From Candidatus Melainabacteria bacterium (GTDB lineage: Bacteria > Cyanobacteriota > Vampirovibrionia > Obscuribacterales > Obscuribacteraceae): DNA of 64,000 nt. Of this stretch, positions 8,259 through 9,837 are shown piece by piece. The position numbers and the translations under genes are program-made. A model generated the notes under the pieces. It was not told the DNA's origin. It made no database searches and saw nothing but the letters and a program-made list of their open reading frames with translations. The stretch is from the NCBI GenBank assembly GCA_003963305.1, contig RXJR01000001.1, forward strand, positions 496,001 through 560,000, read 5' to 3'. Numbering within the stretch: position 1 is the stretch's first letter; every line of letters begins with the position of its first letter.

Positions 8259-8288
8259 TTGACGTCTGGTTGCATCTTAGGCTAGTAT
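8259..8288 (+). promoter_or_regulatory. Predicted sigma-70-type promoter of the aspS leader
   Basis: TTGACG (8259-8264) and TAGTAT (8283-8288) are separated by 18 bases. They match the -35 box at five of six positions and the -10 box at four of six. A start near 8295 would place a 5-bp GC hairpin (GCCCC/GGGGC, 8297-8309) at the 5' end of the transcript, ahead of the leader peptide. By-eye prediction. Confidence 0.55.
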
Positions 8289-8333
8289 TCGAGAACGCCC
8301 CTCAGGGGCAGAGTATCTATGTAGGACCGAACT

Positions 8334-8444
8334 GTGAAAGTGCACATCACTAGCGCAAAACTCGGCGAGCTGCCAGAAACGGCAGCCATAGTTGCTCCTG
8401 CATCATTCAATAATAATAACAATAGCGACGATAACCGCCTCTAG
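8334..8444 (+). CDS. Asn-rich leader peptide of the aspS attenuator
   Basis: A 36-codon ORF starting with GTG at 8334, seven bases after an AGGA ribosome site (8323-8326), and stopping at TAG 8442-8444. Its C-terminus reads FNNNNNSDDNRL: five consecutive Asn codons (8409-8423), then Ser, Asp, Asp and Asn just before the stop. Its 3' end overlaps the first arm of a hairpin series that ends in an intrinsic terminator ahead of the aspartyl-tRNA synthetase gene. This is the standard layout of ribosome-mediated transcription attenuation, as in trp and his leaders. A ribosome stalled at Asn codons would leave the antiterminator free. No ATG lies upstream in frame except one followed at once by a stop (8319-8324). 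Confidence 0.85.
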   Translation: MKVHITSAKLGELPETAAIVAPASFNNNNNSDDNRL

Positions 8445-8514
8445 CGGTCGGATTGCTGGCGTTATAAACCCCAAACAATATTCCGACCGCAAGACACAGA
8501 GCTTGCGGTCTTTT
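8434..8514 (+). promoter_or_regulatory. Transcription attenuator of aspS (three exclusive hairpins)
   Basis: Three alternative pairings are visible. Protector: ACCGC (8434-8438) with GCGGT (8444-8448), spanning the leader stop codon. Antiterminator: GCGGTCGGA (8444-8452) with TCCGACCGC (8482-8490), nine perfect pairs. Terminator: GACCGCAAG (8485-8493) with CTTGCGGTC (8502-8510), nine perfect pairs, then TTTT (8511-8514). The antiterminator shares its 5' arm with the protector and its 3' arm with the terminator, so only one state can form at a time. A ribosome held at the Asn run (8409-8423) would free 8444-8452 and allow read-through; one reaching the stop codon would mask it and permit termination. 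Confidence 0.88.
8485..8514 (+). terminator. Intrinsic terminator of the aspS leader
   Basis: Nine-base-pair GC-rich stem (8485-8493 with 8502-8510), eight-base loop and TTTT at 8511-8514, ending 15 bases before the aspS start codon. It is the terminator arm of the attenuator. Confidence 0.88.
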
Positions 8515-8529
8515 GCTTATGAGGTCATC

Positions 8530-9837
8530 ATGCAAACAGTAGAAATTCAAAGTCAACAAATACAGCTGCACGTTGGTGAAAGAGTCGAACTAAAAGGGCA
8601 CGCACAGGCGGTTCGAGACCTGGGCAACCTGATGTTCATCACCGTGCGCGACCGCACGGGCTGTGTTCAAGTTGTGCTTGATGACAAAGCATTGATTTCA
8701 AAAGCAAGCGGCATTTCTGCAGAAACCGCCGTCGTAATCAAAGGCGCCGTCGTTCAATCGCCTCAGAAGAATGCACCAGTCGAGGTTCGCGCTGACTCGA
8801 TCGAGTTGCTCTCAGGACCGACAGAAGTGCCGCCGGTGGAAATTTCCAAACAATCGAAAATGGATACCTTGTCTCTAACAGCGATGTTGGACTACCGTCC
8901 TCTGACCCTGCGAAGTCCTAAAGTACGCGCCGTCTTCAAGGTGCAAGCGGCAATAGGGCGAGCCTTCGCGAACTTCCTGACCAGCGAGGATTTCGTTGAA
9001 ATTCACTCGCCGAAAATTGTTTCAACAGGAACCGAGGGTGGTGCCAACTTGTTTAAGCTGGACTATTTCGGCAAACAAGCATTTCTTGCGCAAAGTCCCC
9101 AATTCTACAAACAGATGATGGTGGGCGCCTTTGAGCGAGTGTTTGAAATTGGTCCGGTCTATCGTGCCGAAGAACACGACACAACCAGGCATCTCAACGA
9201 GTACATCAGCCTGGACTTCGAGATGGGATTCATCGAGAGCGAACAAGACCTGATTGCCATGCAAATCAGGCTGATGCAGCACATCTTCGCTCATGTAGAA
9301 GAAACGTGCGCTGCCGAATTAGCGATGTTTGGCGCGACGGTGCCCAGATTTTCAACTATCCCTCAACTGAAATTGCATGAAGCACAGGAGCTTCTGCGGA
9401 ATAAGTTGAATTGGAAACCGAGCGCCGATACGACCGACCTCGACCCTGAAGGTGAGCGACTCTTGTGCCAATACTTCGCAGAGAAGGAGAATTCGGATCT
9501 CTTGTATTTGACGCACTACCCTCGCAGCGTACGTCCGTTTTACGCCATGCCGACGGCAGAAGGTCTGAGCCACAGCTTCGACTTGCTCTACAAAGGACTG
9601 GAGGTAACAACGGGCGGGCAGCGCCTGCACAGAGCCGACGAACTGATCGAGTCTATGCAATCGCGTGGACTGGAGCCGGAGAATTTCGCCGATTACTTGC
9701 AATGCTTCCGCTACGGCATGCCACCACATGGCGGTCTTGCGATCGGACTGGAACGGCTGACCAAGCAGCTTCTCGGGCTACCGACAGTTAAGTTGGCGGT
9801 CCTCTTTCCGAGAGACAGAAATCGACTAACGCCGTAA
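8530..9837 (+). CDS. aspS: Archaeal-type aspartyl-tRNA synthetase, probably non-discriminating
   Basis: Class II synthetase of 435 residues. It has an N-terminal OB-fold anticodon-binding domain (about 1-105) and a catalytic domain with motif 2 (VYRAEEHDTTRHLNEY) and motif 3 (GLAIGLERL, 402-410). It lacks the GAD insertion and the ~590-residue length of bacterial AspRS, so it is the archaeal/eukaryal type. From memory, the Thermococcus enzyme uses Trp26 and Lys85 to reject tRNA(Asn); by hand alignment these are Gln26 and Asn81 here, with Pro83 nearby. That suggests charging of both tRNA(Asp) and tRNA(Asn), and the Asn-codon leader upstream agrees. The ATG at 8530 has a GAGGT ribosome site; a longer frame to 8392 would run through the attenuator and is rejected. 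Confidence 0.92.
   Translation: MQTVEIQSQQIQLHVGERVELKGHAQAVRDLGNLMFITVRDRTGCVQVVLDDKALISKASGISAETAVVIKGAVVQSPQKNAPVEVRADSIELLSGPTEVPPVEISKQSKMDTLSLTAMLDYRPLTLRSPKVRAVFKVQAAIGRAFANFLTSEDFVEIHSPKIVSTGTEGGANLFKLDYFGKQAFLAQSPQFYKQMMVGAFERVFEIGPVYRAEEHDTTRHLNEYISLDFEMGFIESEQDLIAMQIRLMQHIFAHVEETCAAELAMFGATVPRFSTIPQLKLHEAQELLRNKLNWKPSADTTDLDPEGERLLCQYFAEKENSDLLYLTHYPRSVRPFYAMPTAEGLSHSFDLLYKGLEVTTGGQRLHRADELIESMQSRGLEPENFADYLQCFRYGMPPHGGLAIGLERLTKQLLGLPTVKLAVLFPRDRNRLTP

Follow-up and report, generated by a model that had tools for sequence, protein, structure and literature searches.

The window, the whole 64-kb stretch analysed here (G000:C1:496001-560000), belongs to a 7.48 Mb assembly of the family Obscuribacteraceae (Candidatus Melainabacteria; Cyanobacteriota). 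It contains aspS2 (8530–9837, + strand), which encodes an archaeal-type aspartyl-tRNA synthetase of 435 amino acids (PRK05159, TIGR00458) related to AspRS2 of Thermus. All upstream elements are located on the same strand. A sigma-70-like promoter (8259–8288), recognized from its sequence and from relatives, consists of the −35 element TTGACG (8259–8264), a spacer of 18 nt and the −10 element TAGTAT (8283–8288). It is followed by a leader ORF of 36 codons (8334–8444) with a GTG start codon and a TAG stop codon (8442–8444), which is kept in relatives. Its translation is (M)KVHITSAKLGELPETAAIVAPASFNNNNNSDDNRL. The ribosome-binding site of this ORF is an AGGA (8323–8326) 7 nt upstream of the GTG and is a modest match. 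The control codons (8409–8435) read NNNNNSDDN and comprise five consecutive Asn codons (8409–8423), one Ser codon, two Asp codons (8427–8432) and a last Asn codon (8433–8435). Conceptual translation thus bears out the ORF described in the initial annotation, which had also credited it with its own ribosome site.

A short protector hairpin is formed by arms 1 and 2 (CCGC-CTCTA-GCGG, 8435–8447). Its core has only 4 pairs in the window; by-eye reading showed this hairpin in several relatives, and in others it is not evident. Arm 2 (GCGGTCGGA, 8444–8452) forms a perfect antiterminator of 9 bp with arm 3 (TCCGACCGC, 8482–8490). The terminator hairpin of arms 3 and 4 (8485–8510) has the form GACCGCAAG-acacagag-CTTGCGGTC, with a stem of 9 bp between 8485–8493 and 8502–8510, and is followed by a T-rich tail (TTTTGCTT, 8511–8518). 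Antiterminator and terminator are mutually exclusive because arm 3 is common to both. All three helices had been proposed before and are present at the locus, the terminator with a short T-tract.

The predicted energies are −14.6 kcal/mol for the terminator and −15.4 kcal/mol for the antiterminator (9 bp), and the 211-nt leader folds with a z-score of −3.0 relative to shuffles. Folded alone, arms 2–4 adopt the antiterminator. Folding from the Asn run onward yields a protector-type hairpin together with the terminator, as expected of an attenuator. Of the 93,621 nine-codon windows in the six frames of the 64-kb stretch, only this one holds such an Asn run, and a comparable run appeared in 0 of 3000 shuffles of the region. 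The decisive evidence that the leader is not a chance pattern is its conservation in relatives.

Conservation, covariation and aspS2 specificity of the leader

Thirty AspS2 loci of the Obscuribacteraceae were read, with orthologues down to 50% identity. A short Asn/Asp-rich ORF is located upstream of aspS2 in 30/30 of them (for example SANNNNNDRMDNHCLRSGRSRP, LTNNNNDDDNRPTRSSRFWC and INNNNNDDNNNHVLRLFPH), so that the search for the same leader at orthologues, recommended in the initial annotation, found it throughout the family. The three-arm architecture is present in nearly all 30 loci, including those with altered arms (L016, L017 and L019). At L007, L008, L016, L020–L022, L024 and L027 the arms were read by eye, the automatic finder being wrong or blank there.

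The family leaders encode Asn by 105 AAT and 39 AAC codons and Asp by 38 GAT and 35 GAC codons. This alternation implies that the amino acids are kept and not the DNA, which excludes a mere DNA repeat. The density of Asn and Asp codons lies above all 60 dinucleotide shuffles at 27/29 loci, with a mean of 7.2 of 9 codons compared to 2.4. Asn accounts for 17.7% of the residues in leaders versus 2.4% in protein and Asp for 8.8% versus 3.5%, the P-values for leader composition being inflated by the choice of ORFs for their N/D content. Each family leader has one to four Asp codons beside Asn, and those of L006 and L030 are Asp-dominated. The latter (CNDDDDQSSS; genome G011) precedes the AspS2 that diverges most among those read in the family (50% identity), and its arms are different.

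Genes of aminoacyl-tRNA synthetases are often autoregulated, and aspS2 has an upstream T-box in several Bacillota and one Chloroflexota genome. Autogenous control, in which AspRS2 or uncharged tRNA would bind the leader RNA in a ThrRS-like or T-box-like manner and the peptide would be incidental, is nevertheless very unlikely here: the conserved feature is in-frame codon content with synonymous change, no RNA domain besides the arms is conserved, and the Rfam scan of the window returned only a tRNA-Arg and no T-box (RF00230) match at the leader.

The spacing of the elements is nearly fixed. The first Asn codon is found about 34 nt 5' of the arm-2 core and the stop codon 22 nt 3' of it (medians); in relatives this core is usually contained in CTTGCGGTC. 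Most relatives have their stop codon beyond arm 2, so that a terminating ribosome would cover arm 2 only partly. In the genus of the window, by contrast, the stop codon touches the edge of arm 2. A promoter resembling TTGAC-N17/18-TAnnAT is present at the equivalent place in 25/30 relatives.

Covariation was computed on 22 leaders (alignment A2), in which row L023 is off by four columns and lowers the counts. Terminator and antiterminator both covary, which answers the proposed covariation check for two of the three helices. Two-sided changes occur at 10/13 pairs of the terminator; its covariation is 0.363 compared to 0.151 in shuffled alignments (0/500 as high) and is far above that of slid controls. 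For the antiterminator, two-sided changes occur at 7/11 pairs and the covariation is 0.247 compared to 0.164 (0/500 as high), whereas its pair count alone is less striking, as it was equalled by 32/500 shuffles. In L016, L017 and L019, TTGCGGTC is replaced by forms of CTGGTGGTC and the replacement is compensated in other arms.

A covariance model of the leader gave matches with E<1e-5 in 40/50 family genomes. Eight loci were opened from genomes outside the model; AspS2 is present at 8/8 and an N/D-rich leader at 7/8, the assumed ORF start being misplaced at the eighth. A conserved Asn leader is absent at asnS, asnB, gatB and the bacterial aspS of the window genome (G000). An Asn-containing small ORF upstream of asnB in this genome (MLNNRHNR...) was rejected, since it was not seen in relatives. 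Outside the Obscuribacteraceae, AspS2 was detected in 1/291 other Cyanobacteriota genomes sampled.

Weak matches of the model elsewhere in the family turned out to be ordinary terminators or coding sequence, except for one upstream of trpE. Intrinsic terminators between genes are common, and these weak matches include plain ones, so that the aspS2 leader might be read as the ordinary terminator of an upstream transcript next to a chance Asn-rich ORF without any regulation. This explanation is extremely improbable: the leader is served by a conserved promoter of its own, and the N/D-rich ORF, the arms and their spacing persist in orthologues of only 50–64% identity.

The exceptional match revealed a classical Trp leader with alternative hairpins upstream of trpE in G000 (C24, L155 approximately 1695–1870, − strand), where the peptide MIQLETNLPGFKGWWRWSQQPGKLMPGW is encoded beside a shared-arm terminator. 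Leaders containing WW are found upstream of trpE in several relatives (WWRLSDTPGKQTPGW, WWRSSERPGKRLPGW and WWPWLNKPGKPLSAW); an example of a Trp leader at trpE is WWRWSQQPGKLMPGW. These Trp leaders indicate that ribosome-mediated attenuation operates in the Obscuribacteraceae lineage.

The AspS2 enzyme and the predicted switch

In NCBIfam, AspS2 scores 546.6 bits with PRK05159 (cut-off 353) and 392.5 bits with TIGR00458 (cut-off 368.4), aspartate--tRNA(Asn) ligase, and both families may include discriminating enzymes too. The nearest solved structure is that of Thermus AspRS2 (1n9w/3kfu, E 6e-129). The two types of AspRS are marked by residues that we take to be W26/K85 in Thermococcus and H/P in Thermus. 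AspS2 of G000 has Q at aligned position 26 and N at aligned position 85 and corresponds to neither pair. In the Obscuribacteraceae enzymes read, position 26 is mostly Q, H or Y, and position 85, the anticodon-loop position corresponding to the Thermus Pro, is variable. None of the family enzymes read has the W/K pair found in Thermococcus. AspS2 is likely to be non-discriminating and would then also aspartylate tRNA(Asn).

The same genome encodes AsnRS (C21), AsnB (C9), GatB (C8), GatA (C9) and a bacterial-type AspRS (C42). Its tRNA-Asn(GUU) carries a U1-A72 pair, which has been named as needed for the GatCAB route (PMC4206432). This pair lends the route weak support, because it occurs also in relatives without AspS2. 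In G001, G003, G007, G024, G031 and G033, GatB was not found though GatA and a leader-controlled AspS2 are present, which may reflect an assembly gap or a real loss. A non-discriminating AspRS without GatB would be harmful, unless the absence of GatB is such a gap. These genomes and the variable loop residue would fit a real attenuator in front of an AspRS2 that is discriminating or otherwise employed and does not feed GatCAB. We consider this unlikely, as the Thermococcus pair is missing from the family enzymes read, G000 has both GatA and GatB, and the Asn codons point toward the supply of Asn-tRNA.

The preferred reading of the locus is a ribosome-mediated transcription attenuator that senses charged Asn-tRNA and controls an AspRS2 supplying GatCAB; on the sequence evidence we give it a probability of roughly 0.87. 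Several points weigh against it: the short T-tract of the window, the partial cover of arm 2 by a terminating ribosome in most relatives, the leader-bearing genomes in which GatB was not found, the variable loop residue, and the additional AsnRS, AsnB and bacterial AspRS, owing to which AspRS2 is but one of several sources of Asn or Asn-tRNA. Very probably, aspS2 is switched on when charged Asn-tRNA runs short. Ribosome stalling, read-through and the direction of the response are what we infer from the layout of the leader. Transcription would start at about 8296, with a ribosome translating the leader ORF behind the RNA polymerase. As long as charged Asn-tRNA(Asn) is plentiful, along with charged Asp-tRNA(Asp) to read the Asp codons, this ribosome would reach the stop codon and block the pairing of arms 2 and 3; arm 3 would be free to pair with arm 4 and transcription would end near 8514. 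With too little charged Asn-tRNA, the ribosome would stall on the Asn run, approximately 20–35 nt 5' of arm 2. Arm 2 would then capture arm 3, no terminator would form and aspS2 would be transcribed. The extra AspRS2 would provide Asp-tRNA(Asn) and GatCAB would amidate it to Asn-tRNA(Asn), which restores the sensed product.

The constant presence of Asp codons suggests that Asp-tRNA is sensed as well as Asn-tRNA. The sensing of Asn-tRNA put forward in the initial annotation is supported by the conservation of the leader and the covariation of its helices; it has to be amended in that Asp codons are always present and the switch may respond to Asp-tRNA in addition to Asn-tRNA. A stronger version, in which the same switch senses mainly charged tRNA(Asp), or Asp and Asn equally, and AspRS2 is regulated as an aspartyl-tRNA synthetase, is possible but doubtful. 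It would account for the one to four Asp codons in each family leader, for the Asp-dominated leaders of L006 and L030 and for the frequent DDN or DDDN of Deinococcota leaders (see below). On the other hand, the enrichment of Asn is stronger than that of Asp, the leader in the window opens its cluster with five consecutive Asn codons, and tRNA(Asp) is served by the second, bacterial AspRS.

For the attenuator responding to Asn-tRNA, the role of its target has to be modified as well. The suggestion that the AspRS feeds transamidation agrees with the presence of GatA and GatB. Because AsnRS and AsnB are encoded in addition to a bacterial AspRS, the AspRS2/GatCAB route seems to be a back-up source of Asn-tRNA that is induced on demand.

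Putative control elements of aspS2 in other phyla

AspS2 is encoded in 94/111 Deinococcota genomes. In Thermaceae, Trueperaceae and Deinococcales, aspS2 is accompanied by miniature leaders with Asn/Asp codons beside alternative hairpins (L159–L190, L047, L049, L050, L052, L054, L068, L073 and L104). Their peptides include MRTDNNP, MRPRLLNNG, MRLPQGNDA, MCRCGNDDH, MNAFPRFDDDNLGCRLGA and MTNALALRTDDNSDSRPLGA, each ending at a stop codon, and DDN or DDDN is often present. Most have a G-rich arm 2, a C-rich arm 3 and a G-rich arm 4. The automatic search placed shared arms at 29/31 matched leaders, which is to be read as most of them, since some arms were misplaced (L159, L161, L172 and L190); it failed at L180 and L182, and L163 was unmatched. 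The shuffle test is weaker than in the Obscuribacteraceae (10/29 loci above all 60 shuffles) because these leaders are tiny.

In Thermaceae, the start codon of the leader lies only a few nucleotides 3' of a −10-like TAAACT, and the leader mRNA may have no 5' UTR. A T-tract is missing from some Thermus hairpins, which may act by termination or in another mode.

T-boxes (RF00230) are located upstream of aspS2 in clostridia, Paenibacillus and one Chloroflexota MAG. Upstream of AspS2 in a Bipolaricaulota MAG (L038), a T-box-like GGGTGGCACCGCGG is followed by a strong terminator; this element is below the Rfam threshold.

Obscuribacteraceae and Deinococcota each form a monophyletic group in the tree of AspS2 (100/99 and 100/100, respectively). 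With midpoint rooting they are separated by other lineages, including users of T-boxes, and two independent origins of the Asn/Asp leaders are favoured. We lean towards regarding the leaders as a widespread Asn/Asp-sensing class that arose independently in Obscuribacteraceae and Deinococcota, replaces the Bacillota T-box on the archaeal-type AspRS and reads both tRNA products.

Comparison with known systems

Leader-peptide attenuators of Proteobacteria control trp, his, leu, thr, ilv, pheA and pheST. Others have been described in Actinobacteria (PMC1262725) and at hisS/hisZ in bacilli (PMC2965389). The aspS2 leader shares with known leader-peptide attenuators the clustered control codons in a short ORF, the antiterminator and terminator with a common arm, the T-tract and a promoter of its own. 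It differs from them in its control codons (Asn and Asp), in its target (aspS2 of a tRNA-dependent route) and in the phyla concerned, Cyanobacteriota (Obscuribacteraceae) and Deinococcota.

A limited search of the open-access literature found no prior report of such an aspS2 leader, and the claim of a system undescribed for aspS stands to that extent. As a statement about what exists in the lineage or at aspS it does not hold, given the Trp leader at trpE of G000 and the aspS2 leaders of Deinococcota. The locus appears to be a real, conserved attenuator of a known type whose specificity, target gene and phyla are new so far as the open-access literature shows.

The repertoire of leader peptides would gain asparagine, together with aspartate, in connection with tRNA-dependent amidation, and ribosome-mediated attenuation would extend to a lineage of Cyanobacteriota without photosynthesis and to aspS2 of Deinococcota. 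The presence of tRNA-dependent amidation beside AsnRS and AsnB is a puzzling redundancy; the leader suggests that AspRS2 is made when Asn-tRNA is short. As the laboratory genus Thermus is among the carriers, attenuation by the aspS2 leader is testable.

A non-discriminating AspRS2 and GatCAB are known from Thermus and Deinococcus (PMC4206432). As in these genera, an archaeal-type second AspRS is encoded alongside AsnRS and a bacterial AspRS; unlike them, G000 has AsnB too and the anticodon-loop Pro is not conserved in the Obscuribacteraceae. T-box control in the same pathway (Saad et al. 2012, listed in PMC4206432) is likewise a response to tRNA status at the RNA level. The T-box binds tRNA directly, whereas the Obscuribacteraceae leader would act as a translated ORF. 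With T-boxes on aspS2 elsewhere, this gene would be a plain example of one problem solved by distinct RNA sensors.
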